From contig UCAU01000014.1 of NCBI GenBank assembly GCA_900470445.1, positions 1 through 64,000 on the forward strand: a stretch of 64,000 bases of DNA. The letters are read 5' to 3'. Made by a program: the position numbers and the translations under genes. The notes beneath the pieces were generated by a model. It was not told the origin of the DNA and did no database searches. It was given only the letters and a program-made list of their open reading frames with translations. Each line of letters opens with the position of its first letter. The stretch's first letter is position 1. Shown here piece by piece: positions 42,594 through 53,190 of the stretch. This DNA is from Hyphomicrobiales bacterium. GTDB lineage: Bacteria > Pseudomonadota > Alphaproteobacteria > Rhizobiales > Devosiaceae.

Positions 42594-42719
42594 AGCCCTC
42601 CCCACAAGGGGGAGGGTGACATCGAGTGTCTGGTCCCATCCAGCCACACCCATTGGCCGTATGGGGCACCATCCCGCCAAGTTCACCGGGGTCACCCTCC
42701 CCTTGATGGGGAGGGGTGG
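42594..42719. repeat. Pair of family 2 repeats in inverted order
   Basis: CCCTCCCCACAAGGGGGAGGG near 42597-42617 and CACCCTCCCCTTGATGGGGAGGGG near 42693-42716 are each partly self-complementary and complementary to each other. They fill much of the gap between tonB and the polyketide synthase gene (42559-42843), in which I see no other feature. Confidence 0.55.
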
Positions 42720-42843
42720 GGGAGAGCCACGATCCGCAGGTTCTTTCCATGAGGAACAAAAACCGCAAGCCCCCCAGCGTTGCCGGCTAAGTGATGGATC
42801 GTTTGGGCATTTGTGCAATTACTGGGCGCTTACGCGTTGTTTG

Positions 42844-43917
42844 ATGGCGCGAAAGGACAAGCCCTTGTCTGCATTTGCCCAATTGATCTCCACCGCCACT
42901 GCCGTGCCGCCCAATATCCTGCTGCAACGTGATGTCGCGACGGCGGCGGGGGAGATTTTCGGGCCGCGCTTTCGTGAATTCGATCGCATGGCCAAAGTGT
43001 TCGAAACCGCCGGGATCACCAAGCGCCATTCGGTGCGGCCCATCGACTGGTTTTTCGAGACCCGCGGCTGGCCCGAACGCACGGCGGTCTATCTCGAAGC
43101 CGCCTGCGCGCTGTTCATCGAAGCGGCGTCGAAAGCGCTTGAGGAGGCCGGGCTCACCGGCGCCGATATCGATAGCGTGGTCACTGTCTCTTCCACGGGC
43201 ATTGCCACGCCCTCGCTCGAAGCGCGGGTAGCCGGCCGCATGGGCTTTCGCAGCGATATCGAGCGCGTGCCGGTCTTCGGGCTGGGCTGCGCCGGGGGCG
43301 TGTCCGGCTTTGCCATCGGTTCGCGCCTCGCCGTGGCGCGGCCAGGCACCAATGTGCTGGTGGTCGCGGTTGAGCTGTGCACTCTCGCCTTCCGGCTCGA
43401 TGAATTGAGCAAGGCCAATATCGTGGCAACCGCGCTATTCGGCGACGGCGCCGCTGCCTGCGTGTTGCGGGCGGGGGAGGGTGGGCTGGCCGATGTCGAG
43501 GCAGCCGGGCAGCACACCTGGCCCGATACGCTCAACATTATGGGCTGGAGTGTCGACCCGCAGGGTTTTGGCGTTATTTTTGACCGTACCATTCCCCCTT
43601 TTGCCGAAGCCGAAATGGGCCCAGCCGTCAGCGCCATTCTGGCGCGAGCGGGGCTCACAGTGGACGATATCGACCGGTTCGTCTGCCATCCCGGCGGCAT
43701 CAAAGTGGTTGAAGCGCTCGAACATGCGCTGCGCCTTGAGCAAGGCTCGCTCGATGTGGAGCGGCAGGTTTTGGCCGACTACGGTAATATGTCCGCGCCC
43801 ACCGTGCTTTTTGTGCTCGACGCCGTGCGGCGGCGTGGCCTGCCCAAGCGGTCCCTGCTGACGGCGATGGGGCCGGGCTTTTCGGCCTCTTGCCTCTCGC
43901 TCAAGGCCGCCGCGTGA
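42844..43917 (+). CDS. Type III polyketide synthase
   Basis: A 357-residue thiolase-fold enzyme of the chalcone/stilbene synthase family. The catalytic triad is visible as C149 (GLGCAGG), H282 (CHPGG) and N315 (GNMSAP). The H-to-N spacing of 33 equals that of chalcone synthase. It probably extends a fatty acyl starter with malonyl-CoA into an alkylpyrone or alkylresorcinol. The start has no good ribosome site; 42844 is the ATG closest to the family N-terminus. The methyltransferase gene overlaps its stop by GTGA. Confidence 0.9.
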   Translation: MARKDKPLSAFAQLISTATAVPPNILLQRDVATAAGEIFGPRFREFDRMAKVFETAGITKRHSVRPIDWFFETRGWPERTAVYLEAACALFIEAASKALEEAGLTGADIDSVVTVSSTGIATPSLEARVAGRMGFRSDIERVPVFGLGCAGGVSGFAIGSRLAVARPGTNVLVVAVELCTLAFRLDELSKANIVATALFGDGAAACVLRAGEGGLADVEAAGQHTWPDTLNIMGWSVDPQGFGVIFDRTIPPFAEAEMGPAVSAILARAGLTVDDIDRFVCHPGGIKVVEALEHALRLEQGSLDVERQVLADYGNMSAPTVLFVLDAVRRRGLPKRSLLTAMGPGFSASCLSLKAAA

Positions 43918-44402
43918 TCGGCTCGATACTGCTGCTGGGTTTCGTCACCGCCGAGCGGCTAGGCGAACTCGTGCTGGCGCGGTGTAATACTGCGCGCTTG
44001 TTGGCAGCGGGCGCGGTCGAACATGCGCGGGGCCATTATCCGCTGATCGTGTTGCTGCATGCGGTCTGGCTGATCGGGCTGTGGCTGCTGGCGTGGAACC
44101 TGCCGATCAATCTGGGGTGGCTGGTCGTCTTCATCGTCCTGCAAGGCCTGCGCCTTTGGGTACTCGCGACGCTCGGGCCCCGCTGGACCACGCGCATTAT
44201 CGTGCTGCCGCAGGCGGACCTCGTTGCGCGTGGGCCTTATCGCTTCGTCAAACATCCCAATTATCTGGTGGTCATCGGGGAAATTGCCGTGCTCCCGCTG
44301 GTGTTCGGGCTGGTCTGGTATGCGGGGTTGTTTTCCCTGCTCAATGCCGGAATTCTCTTCATTCGCATCACGGCCGAAAATAAGGCGCTGGCGGCCCGAT
44401 AG
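43914..44402 (+). CDS. Isoprenylcysteine carboxyl methyltransferase (ICMT) family protein
   Basis: A 162-residue membrane methyltransferase with about four hydrophobic segments. The family core is GPYRFVKHPNYLVVIGEI, whose RHPxY-type motif binds S-adenosylmethionine. A GTG at 43914 overlaps the polyketide synthase stop. ICMT-family proteins next to type III synthases (the bpsAB arrangement of Bacillus) methylate the pyrone product, so an O-methyl alkylpyrone is the likely outcome. Confidence 0.85.
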   Translation: MIGSILLLGFVTAERLGELVLARCNTARLLAAGAVEHARGHYPLIVLLHAVWLIGLWLLAWNLPINLGWLVVFIVLQGLRLWVLATLGPRWTTRIIVLPQADLVARGPYRFVKHPNYLVVIGEIAVLPLVFGLVWYAGLFSLLNAGILFIRITAENKALAAR

Positions 44403-44451: not shown

Positions 44452-44470
44452 TTGTCGACAAACTAAATAC
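44452..44470 (+). promoter_or_regulatory. Hydroxyproline regulator site, copy 1
   Basis: TTGTCGACAAACTAAATAC starts with the perfect palindrome TTGTCGACAA, typical of GntR/FCD operators. Eighteen of its 19 bases recur in the same orientation relative to the gene at 48665-48683, before the GntR regulator. It ends 52 bases before the deaminase start. Confidence 0.7.
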
Positions 44471-44522
44471 AAAACTCTAAATCTGGCTATGGAGACGCTA
44501 TTGCGACAATGAGGAATTAGGC

Positions 44523-45437
44523 ATGCAAAAGAGTGATTTCCGCGGTGTATTGCCCGCGATCACGACCAAGATGACGGCGGACCAGCAGGTCGATCTCGAT
44601 GGCGTCAAAGCCGATGTGGTGTTTCAGATCGAGGGTGGCGTCGATGCCATCGTGGTCTGCGGCTCGCTGGGCGAAGCCTCGAGCCTGACGGTCGCGGAAA
44701 AGCTCGCCATCGCCAAGGCCGCCATTGAAGCGGCAGCGGGCCGTGTGCCGGTGCTGCTGACCATTGCCGAGGACTCGACCAGCGTCGGCGCGGCGCTTGC
44801 CGCTGAAGCCGAAAAGATCGGTGTCGAGGGGCTGATGGTACTGCCGGCCATGCGCTACCTGGCCGATGACCGCGAAGTGGTGTTCCACTATCGGGCGATC
44901 GCTGCGGCCTCGAACTTGCCGATTATCGTCTACAATAATCCCCTGGCGTACGGCATCAACATCACCGCCGAGATGCTCAAGGACATGGCCGACGAGCCCA
45001 AATTCGTCGCTATCAAGGAATCGACCGGCGACACGCGCCGCATCAACGAGACAATCAATGCATTGGGCGATCGCTACCAGTTGCTGACTGGCGTGGACGA
45101 CCTGGCGCTGGAAAGCCTGGTGCTGGGTTGCCATGGCTGGATTGCGGGCCTGGTCGTTGCCTTCCCCAAGGAGACCGTGGCCATCTACAGACTCGTGCAG
45201 CAGGACCGCATCAAGGAAGCCATGGAAATCTACCGCTGGTTCCTGCCGCTGCTGCATCTCGATATCGGCCCGAAATTCGTCCAGAACATCAAGCTATGCG
45301 AAGCGATTGTGCGTGGCACGTCCCCGGTCGTGCGCCAGCCGCGGTTGGAGCTGGTCGGGGATGAGGAAAAGGCTATTCGGGCCGTGGTCGAGCAGGGGCT
45401 GAAGACGCGGCCGGATTTGGCCAAGTACGGTTTCTAG
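44523..45437 (+). CDS. DHDPS-family aldolase/deaminase, probable pyrroline-4-hydroxy-2-carboxylate deaminase
   Basis: A 304-residue TIM-barrel protein of the dihydrodipicolinate synthase family. The Schiff-base lysine is K165 (FVAIKEST), the catalytic tyrosine Y137 (YNNP), and the carboxylate-binding loop is GSLGEASS. Next to a 4-hydroxyproline epimerase and a D-hydroxyproline-type oxidase it most likely converts pyrroline-4-hydroxy-2-carboxylate to alpha-ketoglutaric semialdehyde, releasing ammonia (the HypD/LhpC role). It stands alone on the plus strand, convergent with the epimerase gene. Confidence 0.85.
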   Translation: MQKSDFRGVLPAITTKMTADQQVDLDGVKADVVFQIEGGVDAIVVCGSLGEASSLTVAEKLAIAKAAIEAAAGRVPVLLTIAEDSTSVGAALAAEAEKIGVEGLMVLPAMRYLADDREVVFHYRAIAAASNLPIIVYNNPLAYGINITAEMLKDMADEPKFVAIKESTGDTRRINETINALGDRYQLLTGVDDLALESLVLGCHGWIAGLVVAFPKETVAIYRLVQQDRIKEAMEIYRWFLPLLHLDIGPKFVQNIKLCEAIVRGTSPVVRQPRLELVGDEEKAIRAVVEQGLKTRPDLAKYGF

Positions 45438-45462
45438 TCTCGGGCGTCTCTACACCCACAAT

Positions 45463-45559
45463 GTCATCCCGGCGCAGGCCGGGATCCATGCTGAAGGCTC
45501 TCCCATCATCCAGTTTGGGGTTGGTTCACGGCATGGATTCCGGCCTGCGCCGGAATGAC
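45463..45559. repeat. Inverted pair of family 1 repeats between convergent genes
   Basis: The 28-base arms at 45463-45490 and 45532-45559 are reverse complements at 26 of 28 positions, with a 41-base loop. Each arm carries the family core (CCGGCGCAGGCCGG or CCGGCCTGCGCCGG). Placed between convergent genes, the long hairpin can end transcripts from both sides. Confidence 0.7.
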
Positions 45560-45589
45560 TCCGTGGGGTGGAATGCTAAGGGGTGCCCC

Positions 45590-46594
45590 TCAGTTCACCG
45601 TAAACCCCTTCACAAACGGATCGCGGTCGTCGAGGAAGATCGTGTTGTAACCCGTGATCCAGGCCTGGCCGGCGATAGAGGGCACGATGGCGTCGTAGGG
45701 GCCGACCTTGGTGGCGGCCTCGACCCGGCCGACAAACAGGCTCCCGATGATCGATTCATGCACAAAGCTCTCGCCCACCTTGAGCTCGCCGCGTGCGGCT
45801 TTCTGGGCCAGGCGCGCCGAGGTGCCGGTGCCGCAGGGTGAGCGGTCGATGGCTTTTTCGCCGTAGAATACCGCATTGCGGGCATCGGCCTTGGGGTTCA
45901 CCGGGGCGCCGGTCCACATGATATGGCGCAGGCCATTGATGGTGGGGAATTCGGGGTGCTGGAAGGTGTATTTCTCGTTGATCAGCCGGCGGGCGACGGG
46001 CGAAAGTTGCTGGATATCGAAGGCTGAGAGCTGGTTCATATCGGTGAAGCCGGGCTGCGGTTCGAAAATGGCGTAGAAATTGCCGCCATAGGCGACGTCG
46101 AACTTGAGCGGCCCAAGCCCCGGCAGGTCGATTTCCAGCCCGGTCGCATAAAGGAAGGAGGGCACATTGGTGATGCGCACGTCGATCACATGGCCCGCAT
46201 TGTCCATGGTGTATTCGGCCTCGATAGTGCCGGCCGGCACTTCGAGCCGCAGCTTGCCCGGTGTCTTGGGCGTGACCAGGCCTTCTTCGATCATCACCGT
46301 CACCGTGCCGATCGTGCCATGGCCGCACATGGGCAGGCAGCCCGAGGTTTCGATGAAGAGGATCGAGCCGTCCACATCCTCGCGCAAAGCAGGATAAAGG
46401 ATCGATCCGCTCATCACGTCATGGCCGCGCGGCTCGAACATCAGGCCGGTGCGGATCCAGTCATATTCGGCCAGAAAATGCTCGCGGCGGGCATTCATCG
46501 TATCGCCCTTGAGGTCGGGGCCGCCCCCGGCCACGACGCGGACCGGATTGCCGCTTGTATGGGCGTCGATACAGAAAAAGCTCTTCTTGCTCAT
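45590..46594 (-). CDS. 4-hydroxyproline 2-epimerase (proline racemase family)
   Basis: A 334-residue proline racemase-fold enzyme. The two catalytic cysteines are both present: C90 in LPMCGHGTIG and C254 in RSPCGTGTSA. That pair marks an epimerase or racemase rather than the Ser/Cys or Thr/Cys dehydratase types. Given the oxidase and deaminase neighbours it most likely turns trans-4-hydroxy-L-proline into cis-4-hydroxy-D-proline. Its start follows the oxidase stop by 6 bases. Confidence 0.9.
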   Translation of the reverse strand: MSKKSFFCIDAHTSGNPVRVVAGGGPDLKGDTMNARREHFLAEYDWIRTGLMFEPRGHDVMSGSILYPALREDVDGSILFIETSGCLPMCGHGTIGTVTVMIEEGLVTPKTPGKLRLEVPAGTIEAEYTMDNAGHVIDVRITNVPSFLYATGLEIDLPGLGPLKFDVAYGGNFYAIFEPQPGFTDMNQLSAFDIQQLSPVARRLINEKYTFQHPEFPTINGLRHIMWTGAPVNPKADARNAVFYGEKAIDRSPCGTGTSARLAQKAARGELKVGESFVHESIIGSLFVGRVEAATKVGPYDAIVPSIAGQAWITGYNTIFLDDRDPFVKGFTVN

Positions 46595-46600
46595 GATGGC

Positions 46601-47833
46601 CTATTGGAAGCGGGTAATGCTGAAAGGGGCGAGCGCCGGATCGGCCGGTGCATCGGCAATAAGGCTAGCGACCAGTCGCGCGGTGACGGCGCTCAGGGTC
46701 AAGCCCAGATGGCCATGGCCGAAGGCATAGACGATGCGGTCGTCGCCGGGATGGTGGCTGATGACGGGCAGGGAATCGGGCGTCGAGGGGCGGCGGCCCA
46801 TCCATTCCTTGCCGGTTTCGGGCAGGGCGGGCACATAGCGGCGCATCTTGGTGCGCATGGCCCTGGCGCGGGCGAAATTGGGGGCGGTGTCGGGCTTGGC
46901 CAATTCCACCGCGCCGCCCACGCGCAGGCCATCGACCAGTGGCGAAGCGATAAAGCCATGATCGGCAAAACCTACCGGCATGGGCAGGTTCCAGTCCAGA
47001 TCGGTGAAGGTGGTGTTATAGCCGCGCTCGTTTTCGAGCAGTACTTTGGCGCCCAGCCCGCGCACCAGATCGCGCGACCACACCCCGGCGGCGACCACCA
47101 CCTTGTCGAAGGTTTTCTGGCCCGATGGTGTGGCGATGGTGATGCCGTTCTCGCCCTGTACCAGCCGTGTCACCTTGGCCGGCACGAGCTTGGCGCGGCC
47201 ACTGACGAAGGACTGATAATGGCGCAAAATGGTCAGGGGATTGGAGGCCGTCCAATAGCTGGGCTGATAGATGGCACCGGCAAAATTGCCCTCCAGCTGC
47301 GGCACCAATTGGCGCGCACGCTCGGGGGTGATGCGTTCGAAATCATAGCCCAGAGTGGCCTTGACGACGCCGGCTTCATGCAGGGCGGAGGCTACGCTTT
47401 TTTCGCTGTCATGCACCGAAACGTAGCCGGTCTGCCGCAAGTGGCCGGAGAGAGCAGCCTTGCGGCCCAGCTCTTCATGGTCGGCCAGCGCGCTGGTCAT
47501 CAATAGCGTCAGCGCTTCGCGCGCTTTGACTCCGCGGGCCGGTGTGGCGGAGGCGAGGAATGCCAAAAGCCAGGGCAGTAGCGCGGGCACATCGGTCCAG
47601 CGCAGGGTCAGCGGCCCCAGCGGATCGAGCAGCCAGCCTGGTACGGCCGACAGAATGCCGGGGCTGGCAATCGGCGCGATTTCGGGCAGGGCGATCAGCG
47701 AGGCGTTGCCTGATGAGGTGGGCAGGCCATCGGGCTCGGGCTCGAAGACCGTGACGTCATGGCCCTGATCGATCAGCCAGGTGGCAATGGCGGCGCCGAT
47801 AATGCCGGCGCCGGCAACGGCGATACGGGCCAT
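46601..47833 (-). CDS. FAD-dependent D-amino acid dehydrogenase, probable cis-4-hydroxy-D-proline oxidase
   Basis: A 410-residue DadA-type flavoprotein. The N-terminal FAD site is VAGAGIIGAAIATWL and the C-terminal FAD segment is GHGHLGLTLS. Placed between the epimerase and GntR regulator genes, it should oxidise cis-4-hydroxy-D-proline to pyrroline-4-hydroxy-2-carboxylate, passing electrons to the respiratory chain. Its start overlaps the regulator stop by one base (TAATG). A general D-amino acid role is possible but less likely. Confidence 0.88.
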   Translation of the reverse strand: MARIAVAGAGIIGAAIATWLIDQGHDVTVFEPEPDGLPTSSGNASLIALPEIAPIASPGILSAVPGWLLDPLGPLTLRWTDVPALLPWLLAFLASATPARGVKAREALTLLMTSALADHEELGRKAALSGHLRQTGYVSVHDSEKSVASALHEAGVVKATLGYDFERITPERARQLVPQLEGNFAGAIYQPSYWTASNPLTILRHYQSFVSGRAKLVPAKVTRLVQGENGITIATPSGQKTFDKVVVAAGVWSRDLVRGLGAKVLLENERGYNTTFTDLDWNLPMPVGFADHGFIASPLVDGLRVGGAVELAKPDTAPNFARARAMRTKMRRYVPALPETGKEWMGRRPSTPDSLPVISHHPGDDRIVYAFGHGHLGLTLSAVTARLVASLIADAPADPALAPFSITRFQ

Positions 47834-48573
47834 TAGCGGGCGTCCGAGAGGCTAATATGGGCGGCGGTGTCGCGGCCGATATAGCTCTGGATTTGCCGCA
47901 CGATCTGGGCGGCATGTTCGGCACCCAGCCGGTCGGCGAGGTCCGCGTCGCCCGCTTCGATGGCCGCAACCATGGCGCCGTGTTCGTCGACATATTGGCG
48001 CGGCAGCTTGTCATCGAAGGAGGAATAATAGAGCCGCAGGATGCGCCGACCCTCGTCGAGCAGCCGGCCAAAGAGGTTGGTGAAATAGATATTGCCGCCG
48101 GCTTCGGCGATGGCCATGTGGAAATCGCGATTAGCCTGGATCATGCCCAGTGCATCGCGCCGTGCCACGGCCTCCGAATAGGCGCCTTCAAAGCCGCGAA
48201 TGGCCAGCAGATGTTCGGGCCGGCGATGCACCGCCGCGGAGCGCGTGGTGACGCGATACATCAGCGTCAGCGCCTCGAAATAGAGCGGCAGCCGCACGAA
48301 ATCGATGGTCGAGACCACTGTGTTGCGATTGGGCAGCGTGGTCACCAGCCCTTCGCCCGAGAGGCGCACCAGCGCCTCGCGGATCGGGGTGCGCGACATT
48401 TCGAATTGTTCGGAGAGGCTTGATTCGTCGAGCGGGCTGCCGGGCTCAAGCTCGAGTTCGAGAATGGATTGGCGCAGCCGCTCATAAACGGTCTGGGCGC
48501 CTTGCCCGCGCACGCGGCCATTGGCAGGGGCTTCGGCGGCCGGTTTGGTTTTCTGGGTCTTGGCCGTGGCCAT
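47833..48573 (-). CDS. GntR family transcriptional regulator (FCD domain), hydroxyproline locus
   Basis: A 246-residue regulator. The winged helix (about 28-95) includes SEQFEMSRTPIREALVRLSGEGLV, followed by an FCD ligand domain (about 105-235). The first 25 residues are a flexible Lys/Ala-rich tail. It heads the minus-strand operon with the oxidase and epimerase. The palindromic element upstream of it is repeated before the deaminase gene, so it probably controls both promoters, sensing hydroxyproline or an intermediate. Confidence 0.88.
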   Translation of the reverse strand: MATAKTQKTKPAAEAPANGRVRGQGAQTVYERLRQSILELELEPGSPLDESSLSEQFEMSRTPIREALVRLSGEGLVTTLPNRNTVVSTIDFVRLPLYFEALTLMYRVTTRSAAVHRRPEHLLAIRGFEGAYSEAVARRDALGMIQANRDFHMAIAEAGGNIYFTNLFGRLLDEGRRILRLYYSSFDDKLPRQYVDEHGAMVAAIEAGDADLADRLGAEHAAQIVRQIQSYIGRDTAAHISLSDAR

Positions 48574-48664
48574 GTTCAGTGCTGCTCCATAGGCTTGGTA
48601 CCCGATCAGGCCGATAGCTTGTCAGCCGGCTGGTGCGGTTTCAAGCGCGCTCGGAACCTACATC

Positions 48665-48683
48665 GTATTCAGTTTGTCGACAA
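48665..48683 (-). promoter_or_regulatory. Hydroxyproline regulator site, copy 2
   Basis: On the minus strand it reads TTGTCGACAAACTGAATAC, identical to 44452-44470 at 18 of 19 positions. It is 91 bases upstream of the GntR start and points the same way towards its gene as copy 1. The LysR gene starts 70 bases to the other side. Confidence 0.7.
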
Positions 48684-48752: not shown

Positions 48753-49802
48753 ATGGATGATGAACGAGCAGGCGCAAAGATCAAGCGCGCCGGCAATGCC
48801 AGATCTGCCGCACGCCAGAAGGCCGGCGAGGTCACGCTCCATCAATTGCGCATTTTCTGGGCCGTGGCCCGCTCGGAAACCCTGACCAAGGCGGCCAAGC
48901 AATTGGGGCTGGCGCAGCCGTCATTATCCCAGCAATTGAGCAAGCTGGAAGCCAATGTCGGCACGCTGTTGTTTCATCGCCGCTCCAATGAAATGGAACT
49001 GACCGAGGCAGGCGCTTATCTGCTGCCCAAGGCCGAGCAGGTGCTGCGCAATATGCGCGAATTGGAAGATGGCCTGGGTCAGTTCAGCGGCGGCAAGCGG
49101 CTGACGCTGCGGCTGGCGGGCATCAATTCGGTGCTGCGCGTGCTGTTGCCCGCGGCCATCGGCAGTATGCAGAGCCAATTCCCCGAGGTCGATTTCGACA
49201 TTCAGGAAAGCGCCCCCGCCGATATTCTGGAACTGCTCTATGGGCGGCGGGTCAATATCGGCCTGCTCGCCGCCAATTCGGTGGCGCAGGCGGGTGTCGG
49301 CTTCGTGCAGATCCCGCTGATCGAAGACCCCTATGTGTTGGTGGTGCCCGAGTCCCTCACGCTCGATGGCATTGCTGATCCACAGAATGAATTGCCGGCG
49401 GAACAATTGGGCCTGCTCAACCAATCCATCCAGTTCACCTTTGGCAGTCAGCAGGCCAATCGGGTGGCCGATTGGTATGATCGGCTGCTGCCGCAGCATC
49501 GTGTGGTTGCGCAATGCCGCAGTTTTGAAACGGCCATTGGCCTGGTGCGAGCGGGGTCTGGGGTGTGCCTCGCGCCGGCGCTCGCCACCATTGCAGGCAA
49601 TGGGCCGCCGGGCGGGGTCAAGCTGTACCGTGTCAAGGCGCCGCCGCGCCGCATCGTGGCTTTGGTGCCCTCGCAATATCGCTGCGCCGAGCCCTATGCG
49701 AGCCTGCTCGACCTGCTGCAGCAGACTTCGGCTTCTTATGTCCTGCCGGGAATAAGGCCGACGCCGCCATTTCTGGCGGTGGATACGGAAGACGATTTCT
49801 AG
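48753..49802 (+). CDS. LysR family transcriptional regulator
   Basis: A 349-residue regulator. A basic N-terminal tail of about 25 residues precedes the helix-turn-helix (ETLTKAAKQLGLAQPSLSQQLSKLE), and the LysR substrate domain follows from about 115 (RLAGINSVLRVLLPAAIG). The ATG at 48753 is chosen; an earlier in-frame start at 48633 would add unrelated residues. It lies directly before pqqA on the same strand and back to back with the GntR gene. It may control pqq genes or act elsewhere; sequence alone does not say. Confidence 0.85.
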   Translation: MDDERAGAKIKRAGNARSAARQKAGEVTLHQLRIFWAVARSETLTKAAKQLGLAQPSLSQQLSKLEANVGTLLFHRRSNEMELTEAGAYLLPKAEQVLRNMRELEDGLGQFSGGKRLTLRLAGINSVLRVLLPAAIGSMQSQFPEVDFDIQESAPADILELLYGRRVNIGLLAANSVAQAGVGFVQIPLIEDPYVLVVPESLTLDGIADPQNELPAEQLGLLNQSIQFTFGSQQANRVADWYDRLLPQHRVVAQCRSFETAIGLVRAGSGVCLAPALATIAGNGPPGGVKLYRVKAPPRRIVALVPSQYRCAEPYASLLDLLQQTSASYVLPGIRPTPPFLAVDTEDDF

Positions 49803-49915: not shown

Positions 49916-49996
49916 ATGGCCTGGAAGAAACCAACCATCGTTGAAGTTCCCGTCAGCATGGAAATCAACATGTACGCTTGCGCCACGCGCAAGTAG
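49916..49996 (+). CDS. pqqA: PQQ precursor peptide PqqA
   Basis: A 26-residue peptide beginning MAWKKPTIVEVPVSMEIN and ending MYACATRK. The conserved glutamate and tyrosine with three residues between (E16, Y20) are the atoms from which pyrroloquinoline quinone is built. A GAGGAG ribosome site precedes the ATG. pqqB follows after 26 bases. Confidence 0.92.
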   Translation: MAWKKPTIVEVPVSMEINMYACATRK

Positions 49997-50022
49997 GGAC
50001 TGGCCTGCCGCGGGCGCTGACA

Positions 50023-50916
50023 ATGATCAAAATAGTCATTCTGGGCTCCGCGGCGGGCGGGGGCCTGCCGCAATGGAATTGTGGGTGCGACAACTGTCTT
50101 GCAGCACGAGGCGAGCCGGGCCTGCGCGCCAGCCAGGCTTCGATCGCCATTAGTGGGGATGGCGAGCATTGGTTTTTGATCAATGCATCGCCCGATCTGC
50201 GCCAGCAGATCGTGGATACGCCGGTGCTGCATCCGCGTGCCCTCAGGCACAGCCCGATTGCCGGGGTGATCCTCACCAATGGCGAGGTTGACGCTGTGAC
50301 CGGCCTGCTCTCGCTGCGCGAAGGCTCGCCCTTTGCGCTTTATGCACATCAGCGCGTGCAGGACATTTTGCGGACCAACAGCATTTTCAATGCGCTCAAC
50401 CCGCAGAAGGTGACGCGCATCGCCATCGAGACCGGGGTGGCTTTCGAGCCGACGCTGCCCGATGGCTCGGGATCGGGGCTGCTCATCGAACCTTTCATCG
50501 CCCCCGGCAAAACGGCGCTTTATCTCGAAGGCGCGGCCGAGAACGACGAGGGTGACACGCTGGGCCTGCGCATCACGCGCAATGGCAAGGTACTGGTCTT
50601 TCTCGCCGCCTGTGCCGCTGTCACGCCCGAAGTGGCCGACAGACTGGCCGGGGCCGACCTCGTTTTCTTCGACGGCACGCTGTGGCGCGATGATGAGTTA
50701 ATCGCCTTGGGCCTCGGGCAAAAAACCGGGCAGCGCATGGGCCATATCGCCATGGATGTGGCCATGCCGGCGCTCGCTGACCTGCGGGTTGGCCGCAAGG
50801 TCTTTCTGCATATCAACAATTCGAACCCGGCCTGGCGGCGCGATGCGCCCGAGCGGCTGCAAGCAGAACAAGCAGGATGGATTATTCCTGCCGATGGGAT
50901 GGAGATGACGCTTTGA
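50023..50916 (+). CDS. pqqB: PQQ biosynthesis protein PqqB
   Basis: A 297-residue metallo-beta-lactamase-fold protein. The N-terminus ILGSAAGGGLPQWNCGCDNC, with the zinc-binding cysteines, and the HINNSNP block near the C-terminus are family hallmarks. It acts as an iron-dependent hydroxylase on a tyrosine-derived intermediate. ATG 50023 is the start matching the family N-terminus. Confidence 0.94.
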   Translation: MIKIVILGSAAGGGLPQWNCGCDNCLAARGEPGLRASQASIAISGDGEHWFLINASPDLRQQIVDTPVLHPRALRHSPIAGVILTNGEVDAVTGLLSLREGSPFALYAHQRVQDILRTNSIFNALNPQKVTRIAIETGVAFEPTLPDGSGSGLLIEPFIAPGKTALYLEGAAENDEGDTLGLRITRNGKVLVFLAACAAVTPEVADRLAGADLVFFDGTLWRDDELIALGLGQKTGQRMGHIAMDVAMPALADLRVGRKVFLHINNSNPAWRRDAPERLQAEQAGWIIPADGMEMTL

Positions 50917-50921
50917 CAGCA

Positions 50922-51677
50922 ATGACAGCTTTTTCGGTTGCGTCTGACGCGGTGCTCGATAGTGCCGAAGATCTGGAAGCGCAGCTGCGCGCCATCGGCG
51001 CCACCCGCTACCATAATCTGCACCCCTTTCATCACCTGCTGCATGGCGGCAAGCTGAACAAGGGGCAGGTGCAGGCCTGGGCGCTCAACCGCTATTATTA
51101 TCAAAGCTCGATCCCGCTGAAAGACGCCGTGGTCATCTCGCGCTTCCGCGACCGGGCGACCCGTATTGAATGGCGCCACCGCATCGAGGATCACGATGGC
51201 GATGTGGGGAGCGAAGGCGGTATCGAGCGCTGGCTGCAACTGACCTCGGGCCTGGGGCTCGACAATGATTATGTCGAAGCCGCCGAGGGCATTCTGCCCG
51301 CCACGCGCTTTGCGGTGGATGCCTATATTCATTTCGTCAGGGACCATAGTCCGCTCGAAGCCATCGCCTCGTCCCTCACCGAACTCTTCGCGCCCAACCT
51401 GCACGAAGAGCGGATTTCTGGCATGCTGGAGCACTATGATTTCATCAATCCGGGCGTGATGACCTATTTCAAGCGCCGGCTGGAACAGGCCCCGCGCGAC
51501 GCCAATTTCGCGCTCGATTACGTCAAGGCCAATGCGAAAACCCCGGCCGAGCGGCAGGCGGTGTGCAATGCCTTGATCTTCAAGACCAATGTGCTCTGGG
51601 TGCAGCTCGACGCGCTCTATCACGCCTATGTCGAGGGGCATGTGCCGCCCGGCGCTTTCGTGCCGGCCCGGCCATGA
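50922..51677 (+). CDS. pqqC: Pyrroloquinoline-quinone synthase PqqC
   Basis: A 251-residue all-helical oxidase that performs the last ring closure and oxidation of PQQ. YHNLHPFHHLLHGGKLN, ALNRYYYQSSIPLKDA and WRHRIEDHDG are family blocks carrying active-site His, Arg and Tyr residues. ATG 50922 gives the usual length; a TTG at 50913 overlapping the pqqB stop is an alternative. It overlaps pqqD by ATGA. Confidence 0.94.
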   Translation: MTAFSVASDAVLDSAEDLEAQLRAIGATRYHNLHPFHHLLHGGKLNKGQVQAWALNRYYYQSSIPLKDAVVISRFRDRATRIEWRHRIEDHDGDVGSEGGIERWLQLTSGLGLDNDYVEAAEGILPATRFAVDAYIHFVRDHSPLEAIASSLTELFAPNLHEERISGMLEHYDFINPGVMTYFKRRLEQAPRDANFALDYVKANAKTPAERQAVCNALIFKTNVLWVQLDALYHAYVEGHVPPGAFVPARP

Positions 51678-51997
51678 CCGACTTTGTCGCCCCGGCTACC
51701 CGCCGCCGCATGAGTGTCAGCGAAGCCAGCGTGCCCACTTTGGCGCGCGGCACCAAATTGCGGCTCGATGAGACCCGCCAGCGCTGGGTGTTGCTGGTGC
51801 CCGAGCGGGTGATGGCGCCCGACGAGATCGCCGTCGAAGTGCTCAAGCTCTGCGACGGACAGCGCAGCGTTGCTGACATCACCGATCACCTGGCTGACAT
51901 CTACAATGCGCCGCGCGCGGAGATTGCCGGCGATATCATCGCCATGCTGCAAGACCTGGCGGATTCCGGCTTTCTGGTCGAGGCGGTAAAACCATGA
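51674..51997 (+). CDS. pqqD: PQQ biosynthesis peptide chaperone PqqD
   Basis: A 107-residue protein. The core (about 20-105) has VPTLARGTKLRLDETRQRWV and a winged-helix end (LQDLADSGFLV). PqqD binds PqqA and presents it to PqqE. The first 18 residues are longer than in minimal PqqD. It overlaps both pqqC and pqqE by 4 bases. Confidence 0.93.
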   Translation: MTDFVAPATRRRMSVSEASVPTLARGTKLRLDETRQRWVLLVPERVMAPDEIAVEVLKLCDGQRSVADITDHLADIYNAPRAEIAGDIIAMLQDLADSGFLVEAVKP

Positions 51998-53190
51998 GCC
52001 CGACCATGAGCGATGCCAGCCCCGTGCTGGTCGATGCCAATGATGGCTTGGCCATCCTCGAAGGCCAGTCCATCGCACAGGCCTATGGCATTCCGCTGGC
52101 GGTGCTGCTGGAAATGACCCATCGCTGCCCGCTGCAATGCGGCTATTGCTCCAATCCCGTCGAGATGGAGCGGGCGGGCAATGAGCTGACCACCGACGAG
52201 TGGAAAAAAGTGCTGACCGAGCTGGCCGAAATCGGGGTATTGCAGGTGCATTTTTCTGGCGGCGAACCCAGTGTGCGCAAGGACCTGGTCGAGCTGGTGC
52301 GTCATGCCAATGATCTGGGGCTCTATACCAATCTGATCACTTCGGCCGTGCTGATCACCAAGGAGCGCCTGACCGAGATTGCCGATGCGGGCCTCGCCCA
52401 TATCCAGATCAGCTTTCAGGCCAATGATCCGGCTTTGGCCAATCGCATTGGCGGCTTCAAGAATGGCCATGCCAAAAAGCTCGACGTGGCGCAATGGTCG
52501 CGCGAACTGGGCCTGCCGCTCACCGTCAATGCGGTGATGCATCGGCAGAACCTGCATGAGCTACGCGACATGATTGCGCTGGCCGTGCAGCTCGATGCCG
52601 ACCGGATCGAAGTCGCCAATGTGCAGTATTATGGCTGGGCGCTGAAGAACCGCGCCGCTTTGATGCCGACCATCGAGCAGATCGATGAGGCCACCGCCAT
52701 TGTCGAGGAAGAGCGCGTCCGGTTGCGCGGCATTCTCGACATCGATTTTGTGGTGCCCGACTATTATGCCCTGCGCCCCAAAAAATGCATGGGCGGCTGG
52801 GGCCGGCAGTTTTTCAACATCACGCCCTCGGGCAAAATCCTGCCCTGCCACGCCGCCGAAACCATCACCGAACTCAATTTTGAATCGGTGCGCTCCAACC
52901 ACTCCATCGCCTGGATCTGGCAGAATTCGGATGCCTTCAACCGCTATCGCGGCACCGGCTGGATGCCCGAGCCCTGCCAGGGCTGCGCCTTCAAGGAGAT
53001 CGATTTTGGTGGCTGCCGTTGCCAGGCTTTCGCCTTGACCGGCAGCGCCGGCAATACCGATCCGGCCTGCCATCTCTCGCCCTTGCATGAGAGCATTTTC
53101 AAGACGGCCGAGCGGGAATCCAGCACCGGGGGAGACCGTTTCATCTATCGCAATTTTTCTGGCGGCACGCTGGAGCCTGAGCAGCCATGA
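51994..53190 (+). CDS. pqqE: PqqA peptide cyclase PqqE (radical SAM)
   Basis: A 398-residue radical SAM enzyme that joins the Glu and Tyr side chains of PqqA. The iron-sulfur motif is CPLQCGYC (C45, C49, C52). A C-terminal SPASM domain carries further cysteines (GKILPCHAAE, PEPCQGCAFKE, GGCRCQAFAL, DPACHLSPLH). It overlaps pqqD and the downstream hydrolase gene by 4 bases each. Confidence 0.95.
   Translation: MSPTMSDASPVLVDANDGLAILEGQSIAQAYGIPLAVLLEMTHRCPLQCGYCSNPVEMERAGNELTTDEWKKVLTELAEIGVLQVHFSGGEPSVRKDLVELVRHANDLGLYTNLITSAVLITKERLTEIADAGLAHIQISFQANDPALANRIGGFKNGHAKKLDVAQWSRELGLPLTVNAVMHRQNLHELRDMIALAVQLDADRIEVANVQYYGWALKNRAALMPTIEQIDEATAIVEEERVRLRGILDIDFVVPDYYALRPKKCMGGWGRQFFNITPSGKILPCHAAETITELNFESVRSNHSIAWIWQNSDAFNRYRGTGWMPEPCQGCAFKEIDFGGCRCQAFALTGSAGNTDPACHLSPLHESIFKTAERESSTGGDRFIYRNFSGGTLEPEQP

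Follow-up and report, generated by a model that had tools for sequence, protein, structure and literature searches.

What does a 19-bp element do that stands in front of two separate transcription units of a hydroxyproline gene cluster, and how far does its influence reach? The element was found in a stretch of 64,000 nucleotides (positions 1 to 64,000 of contig UCAU01000014.1, assembly GCA_900470445.1, a Hyphomicrobiales bacterium of the Devosiaceae), which was analyzed as a whole and is called the window here. We consider it probable that the 19-mer is the operator of a HypR-type GntR/FCD repressor encoded at 47833-48573, and that it defines a regulon of six operators directed at plant hydroxyproline-rich glycoproteins. 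The sites, their neighbors, their conservation and their co-occurrence with the regulator gene are observations. The two copies in the window are organized as follows:

44452..44470, plus strand: operator 1, TTGTCGACAAACTAAATAC, composed of the palindrome TTGTCGACAA (44452-44461) and the extension ACTAAATAC
44469-44472, plus strand: proposed third half-site ACAA of operator 1
48665..48683, minus strand: operator 2, TTGTCGACAAACTGAATAC, with the palindrome at 48683-48674 followed by the extension ACTGAATAC
48666-48663, minus strand: proposed third half-site ACGA of operator 2

Both copies lie where the original prediction had placed them and differ at one base (18 of 19 identical); the first ten bases are indeed a perfect palindrome. 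Each extension points at its own gene, as had been claimed. Operator 1 ends 52 bp upstream of the ATG at 44523, and operator 2 is found 91 bp upstream of the minus-strand ATG of gntR at 48573. Operator 2 is also about 70 bp away from a divergent LysR gene (ATG at 48753), which had not been mentioned before. With up to three mismatches the 19-mer is present exactly twice in the window, compared to zero times in 100 dinucleotide shuffles. Since the palindrome TTGTCGACAA alone (at most one mismatch) turns up five times in the window with 0.91 expected, the 19-base unit is the remarkable part. The flanks outside the 19-mer are unlike between the two operators, indicating that they are not pieces of a longer recent duplication.

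The original prediction limited the regulon to these two promoters, a limit that the complete genome (4.80 Mb, 108 contigs) does not support. A search with up to three mismatches returned eight places, and none with the reversed pattern. Two of the eight, 3-mismatch sites on contigs C22 and C99, are located inside called open reading frames (ORFs); they are probably due to chance and were dropped. The other six are strong sites, located upstream of genes and outside the genes of the filtered caller. Calling genes by length only gave antisense ORFs in GC (guanine plus cytosine)-rich genomes, and a filter on codon-position GC was used instead; because this filter can misplace genes and start codons, any distance to a start codon beyond the window is approximate. 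The four strong sites outside the window are:

C74:7750, exact match: between a divergent oligopeptide ATP-binding cassette (ABC) operon and an M24 gene
C74:10808, 1 mismatch: between a LacI gene and a sugar ABC operon containing a GH127 gene
C86:101331, 1 mismatch: upstream of a short ORF, followed by HyuA/HyuB
C51:87504, 2 mismatches (1 in the palindrome; extension 8/9): upstream of a DHDPS-family gene

The element is thus not scattered away from hydroxyproline-related genes: three of these four sites precede genes that fit, and the fourth, before HyuAB, is not accounted for by the use of hydroxyproline or of hydroxyproline-rich proteins. The exact palindrome was found at 18 places in the genome (reversed control: 2). 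In five of the 18, all of them strong sites, the extension matches at 8 or 9 of its 9 bases; the remaining 13 match at most 5 of 9, so that the extension tells candidate operators from chance palindromes. These 13, of which 12 lie within called genes, were set aside as chance palindromes. Under an independent-base model, a random 9-base flank matches 8 of 9 bases with a probability of 8e-5. A relaxed pattern, TGTCGACANNNNNNATAY, gave 53 genome matches with at most one mismatch and 6 when reversed. Six of its matches are free of mismatches. Five of these belong to the regulon; the sixth, C26:84697, was dropped since it falls within coding sequence that resembles serA on visual inspection. The 47 one-mismatch matches include C74:10808, and the other 46 were set aside.

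The role of the extension was addressed by comparing sites in relatives. Selection by extension score kept 38 of 40 Devosia contexts and 32 of 36 contexts from other genera, a procedure that favors the extension. In the 38 Devosia contexts positions 11, 13 and 15-19 are most conserved, and in other genera the extension reads RAATACAA. Because the other columns had been selected by extension score, a fairer test is given by 27 sites from other genera whose orientation was set from positions 14-16 alone. In these, TACAA at positions 17-21 is matched in 25, 16, 22, 22 and 16 sites, compared to 9, 7, 13, 9 and 9 on the opposite flank, and the conserved one-sided extension proposed originally is therefore retained beyond the genus. 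The ACAA at its end copies the half-site of the palindrome and is 11 bp away from the second palindromic half, and the extension is best read as a putative third half-site one helical turn away. Overlapping two-sided matches in loci L047 and L048 resemble a symmetric 28-bp operator, which we rejected as a general rule, as the left flank carries little information. Alternatively, the asymmetric extension may be a promoter element (a -10 box) and no third half-site, a possibility raised because the extension tends to face a gene: it faces a gene start only in 19 sites, faces away only in 4, and has starts on both sides in 8 (31 of 53 sites, counting this genome's six; sites were left out of the tally when no side was clear, when they fell inside a called gene, or when the nearest start was more than 350 bp away). 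We regard a -10 box as unlikely. In seven loci (L101, L104, L107, L114, L119, L120 and L121) the palindrome is just 11-20 bp from the mechanically called start, which leaves little room for a leader. Moreover, the conserved ACAA end matches the palindrome's own half-site, and extra half-sites at 7-12 nt from the center are reported for FadR-subfamily operators in the available part of Suvorova et al. (2015; PMC4494728).

The genes of the window cluster point to the protein that would recognize the element:

44523..45437, plus strand: DHDPS-family protein, likely a pyrroline-4-hydroxy-2-carboxylate deaminase judged by its Pfam DHDPS domain, 32% identity to the pSymB gene and complementary distribution
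45590..46594, minus strand: 4-hydroxyproline epimerase (HypE; NCBIfam NF010578, 560.6 bits with a cut-off of 376; both family Cys motifs present)
46601..47833, minus strand: flavin adenine dinucleotide (FAD)-dependent oxidase/dehydrogenase, likely acting on D-hydroxyproline (HypO) judged by its Pfam DAO domain and 38% identity to the pSymB gene
47833..48573, minus strand: GntR/FCD regulator of HypR type (Pfam PF00392, 68.2 bits; PF07729, 68.2 bits)
48753..49802, plus strand: divergent LysR-family regulator, sharing its intergenic region with operator 2

The family Cys residues of HypE have a recognized role in this enzyme family. The HypO candidate scores under the cut-off of all NCBIfam models shown. 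The regulator has both the GntR helix-turn-helix and the FCD domain, and a GT-N2-AC palindrome, the spacing given for HypR (PMC4494728), is present beside hyp genes. Its residues His152, His198 and His220 are invariant across nine aligned orthologs and fit an FCD metal site, as far as the related-protein residues described in the available part of PMC6608401 indicate.

A homolog of the regulator (59% identity over 223 amino acids) is encoded on pSymB of Sinorhizobium meliloti, where the same 49 kb also encodes homologs of HypE (65%), HypO (38%), DHDPS2 (71%) and Ldh2 (71%). As the record is unannotated there, the name hypR on pSymB rests on homology and neighbors. TTGTCGACAAATAAAATACAA is found downstream of this gene, ahead of the DHDPS gene, and a copy with reversed extension is found upstream. 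HypR of S. meliloti is reported to regulate negatively, its inducer being 4-hydroxy-L-proline (PMC5343134), and S. meliloti with plasmids integrated at hypRE is described as showing no growth on trans-4-hydroxy-L-proline (PMC12445080). Because the pSymB sites flank the HypR homolog and given these reports, the 19-mer can be tied to HypR, and a hydroxyproline-responsive repressor very probably binds there.

Co-occurrence in relatives points in the same direction. Among 75 genomes of the genus, the 19-mer (at most two mismatches) is present in 17, an ortholog of the GntR regulator (E ≤1e-50, at least 71% identity) in 20, and both in 16. The proposal of a GntR/FCD-type operator is thus well supported by the domains, the palindrome form and the 16 of 17 site-bearing genomes that carry the regulator, and the tie to hydroxyproline genes is supported by the neighbors in this genome and its relatives. 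We also examined named relatives, using the best 80 of 579 from a contig scan (1.55 Mb; Devosia, Chelativorans, Rhizobium, Agrobacterium, Martelella, Paracoccus and others). These contain 47 exact palindromes with 1.2 expected (about 40-fold), distributed over 39 of the 80 loci. TTGTCGACAA ranks first of 320 palindromes of the same composition, the other 319 reaching 21 at most and 1.07 on average. L063, L064, L067 and L069, which have no exact palindrome, carry the variant TTGTCGACAGTTTGTATAT beside gntR.

The genes behind the sites on other contigs extend the regulon beyond free hydroxyproline. The C74 oligopeptide operon encodes an SBP_bac_5 binding protein, ATPases and two permeases (read from translations), and includes an alpha/beta hydrolase whose peptidase type is unproven; the divergent M24 protein has Xaa-Pro aminopeptidase 1 (3ctz, 391 bits) as its top PDB match. 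The sugar-binding protein of the second C74 operon has 6lce as its top PDB match (194 bits; next 102), which a review identifies as the beta-arabinobiose-binding protein of Bifidobacterium longum (PMC8106489). The GH127 protein in this operon matches PF07944 (4.3e-97), and its ETC and CxCCP motifs align with 4qjy and 6ex6. The residues of these motifs have recognized roles in GH127 enzymes. The operon looks like an arabinobiose-type importer with a GH127 beta-L-arabinofuranosidase. The NCBIfam models nearest to HyuAB describe subunits of caprolactamase: this HyuB comes closest to CapB and the HyuA of genome G098 to CapA, both matches being far under cut-off. In two further loci, HyuAB (caprolactamase-like), a trans-3-hydroxyproline-dehydratase-like gene and a ribose-type ABC importer are grouped behind variant operators (L233:2712-12385 and L228:1857-10444); in L233, from genome G095, this group occurs together with a second HypR copy.

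Alternatively, the regulon might be small, with just two promoters, and serve free hydroxyproline alone, the sites on other contigs being unrelated or belonging to another regulator; this would agree with the two sites that flank the gntR cluster in the window and with relatives such as G035 that have only such a pair. We consider this improbable, as the identical 19-mer lies between the C74 peptide-importer and peptidase genes, and orthologs of the C74 genes are physically linked with gntR and the oxidase gene in genomes G020 and G066. Both genomes keep the peptide operon, M24, the oxidase gene and gntR in a single cluster, where divergent gene pairs have operators between them; G017 has a seemingly similar cluster, the oxidase being read by eye. 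That another regulator binds the 19-mer, e.g. the LysR protein divergent from gntR at operator 2 or the LacI protein divergent at C74:10808, is very improbable, since at least 50% identical LysR and LacI proteins are encoded in 1 and 0 of the 80 GntR-centered loci, respectively, compared to an exact palindrome in 39, and the palindrome form is that reported for GntR/FCD operators (PMC4494728). The LysR gene is an uncertain member of the regulon.

In the genome of the window, the C74 genes and the window cluster are on different contigs. In G095, of the same species, the C74-type sites are on C1 and the window cluster is on C2; the coordinates of a second gntR on C1 are those on plasmid NZ_CP104964.1 of Devosia neptuniae A18/4-1, isolated from a root nodule of Vicia costata. 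For this reason the regulon seems to span plasmid and chromosome in G095, held together by the operator. In L231 and L232, both from G085, many genes of the plasmid cluster are split over adjacent frames, probably by assembly errors.

The mechanism that we propose for the HypR-type operator is as follows, with binding, repression, inducer and substrates predicted from sequence. A dimer of the GntR/FCD protein would bind the palindrome TTGT-CG-ACAA, and the third, ACAA-like half-site could accommodate an additional subunit or determine the orientation. The repressor would release the operator in the presence of hydroxyproline or of an early product of it. The six operators would then switch on jointly the hyp catabolic genes, the likely S. 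meliloti-type HypD, the peptide importer with the Xaa-Pro aminopeptidase, the arabinobiose-type importer with GH127, and the HyuAB operon. The combined set is probably geared to plant hydroxyproline-rich glycoproteins, extensin among them. A wider proposal is that one hydroxyproline-sensing repressor unites the arabinoside-sugar, prolyl-peptide and hydroxyproline branches of extensin breakdown through a three-half-site operator, on chromosome and plasmid, in legume-associated Devosia, and that GH127 orthologs elsewhere in the order, including those of Rhizobium and Martelella, take part in this programme as well; for this we see even chances.

The arabinoside branch was followed separately. 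Relatives of the GH127 protein are encoded in 60 of the 75 genus genomes, and a distinct clade (at least 85% identity) is present in 9, all of them GntR-positive (hypergeometric P 1.3e-6, shared ancestry ignored). The M24 ortholog (E ≤1e-150) is found in 7 of 75, again all GntR-positive. In G098 the GH127 and Xaa-Pro peptidase (M24) genes overlap by 4 bases, judged from called starts, and lie behind an operator; in G020, G077 and G083 the extension faces the other gene of the pair. A GH127 of at least 72% identity is encoded near GntR in five of the 80 named loci (Devosia sp. 66-14, Rhizobium sophorae, R. ruizarguesonis, Rhizobium sp. G21 and Martelella mediterranea), and M. mediterranea has a 16/19 site where the LacI gene and the sugar operon start divergently. 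A sample of 397 genomes from the order gave 14 with a GH127 match at E ≤1e-180, 11 of which are outside the genus. Four of these 11 are beside hypO and hypE and five beside an oligopeptide importer, giving such neighbors to 9 of 11 orthologs compared to 1 of 20 paralogous GH127 loci (47-54% identity). The 20 control loci were hand-picked from genus GH127 matches and the 11 test loci come from outside the genus; the one positive control (G098, C1:25500-45000) overlaps the regulon cluster itself. In L294, L295, L296, L297 and L298, ORFs of 238-264 amino acids with a common LPxQGRSEQVIKALA stretch were seen near the GH127 gene or operon, and these perhaps encode another GH127 regulator.

Several observations weigh against the proposed regulon or its arabinoside branch. 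Four of the 20 GntR-positive genomes (G019, G027, G076 and G094) are without a site at two mismatches or fewer, with weaker variants nearby, and G021 has a site and no GntR. No exact palindrome is present in 41 of the 80 named loci, and 75 of the 80 are without a GH127 of at least 50% identity within about 10 kb. The GH127 clade is missing in 11 of the 20 GntR-positive genomes (present in 9), and the sugar branch is accessory. The GH127 operon of G017 has no recognizable operator, and in G027 GH127 adjoins the gntR cluster without a strong operator. Two of the 11 orthologs outside the genus (L295 and L303) have no hydroxyproline or peptide gene nearby. The substrate of GH127 is not certain, because 4qjy, its top PDB match (661 bits), outranks 3wkw (388 bits) and its best NCBIfam model is an aceric acid hydrolase, under cut-off. 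Finally, HyuAB has no clear role in hydroxyproline use.

The gene at 44523 had originally been called the deaminase gene. It is not the S. meliloti-type gene: the window protein shares 32% identity, and the C51 protein 71%, with the DHDPS protein encoded next to the HypR homolog of S. meliloti, and the C51 gene is likely the S. meliloti-type HypD. The window type is present in 10 of the 75 genus genomes at 84% identity or more, all GntR-positive (G070, with 46% identity, met the E-value limit and was left out of this count), and 16 genomes have the C51 type with at least 67% identity, of which 14 are GntR-positive. In the 20 GntR-positive genomes, 6 have the window type only, 10 the C51 type only, 4 both and none neither. 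Because this distribution is complementary, the window gene looks like a functional replacement of the S. meliloti-type HypD. If true, this suggests a second, unrelated deaminase in the hydroxyproline pathway.

The regulon was compared to known systems as described in the available portions of the cited papers. The HypR regulon of Proteobacteria comprises a GntR-family regulator of hypE, hypO and hypD (Leyn et al., 2016; PMC5343134); in Alteromonadales or Aeromonas it has taxon-specific additions, namely proline peptidases, a peptide permease and collagenases. Here GH127, the arabinobiose-type ABC importer and HyuAB are added, and no glycosidase appears in the HypR section of that paper. The operators resemble those of the FadR subfamily in having a GT-N2-AC palindrome with an extra box alongside (PMC4494728). 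In that study the extra boxes are weaker, 7-12 nt from the center, and found in 13 groups, HypR not necessarily being one; here, in contrast, the box is strongly conserved and one-sided, with its AC about 13 nt from the center, at or just beyond that range. The bifidobacterial beta-arabino-oligosaccharide system (BauR, HypBA1/HypBA2; PMC5928203, PMC7263609) likewise has a LacI-family regulator, a sugar-binding protein with two permeases, and GH127. HypBA1 is intracellular, and the GH127 protein here has no visible signal peptide. Unlike in that system, the promoter here contains a HypR-type operator and the genes are tied to hydroxyproline and peptide catabolism. In Xanthomonas, HypBA/HypAA homologs act on arabinosides of hydroxyproline-rich glycoproteins, and a predicted prolyl oligopeptidase gene adjoins one of them (PMC6085000); control there is by HrpX through a plant-inducible promoter (PIP) box and not by a hydroxyproline repressor, and the peptidase gene is described as a pseudogene. 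HypR of Streptomyces coelicolor (PMC6608401) is also a GntR/FadR-subfamily repressor, whose targets are hydroxyproline genes and an upstream putative collagenase gene, but its binding motif, CTNTGC(A/C)ATGTCAC, differs.

HypR, its palindrome and the proline-peptidase members are thus already known, and the arabinoside branch appears to be the new part; among the matches listed from open-licence literature, none tied HypR to GH127 or arabinosides. If true, the proposed regulon would describe in concrete genetic terms how soil and nodule bacteria feed on hydroxyproline-rich glycoproteins of the plant wall, would link a glycosidase family to an amino-acid regulon, and would provide a short operator that predicts further regulon members in other genomes.

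The surroundings of the cluster contain two further groups of ORFs. At 42616-44402, ending shortly upstream of operator 1, are what we take to be chalcone-synthase-like (type III polyketide synthase) and isoprenylcysteine-methyltransferase-like ORFs. At 49916-53190, adjoining the cluster on the other side, is presumably a pyrroloquinoline quinone (PQQ)-biosynthesis-like operon, with a short PqqA-like peptide and PqqB-, PqqC-, PqqD- and PqqE-like ORFs recognized from their translations.

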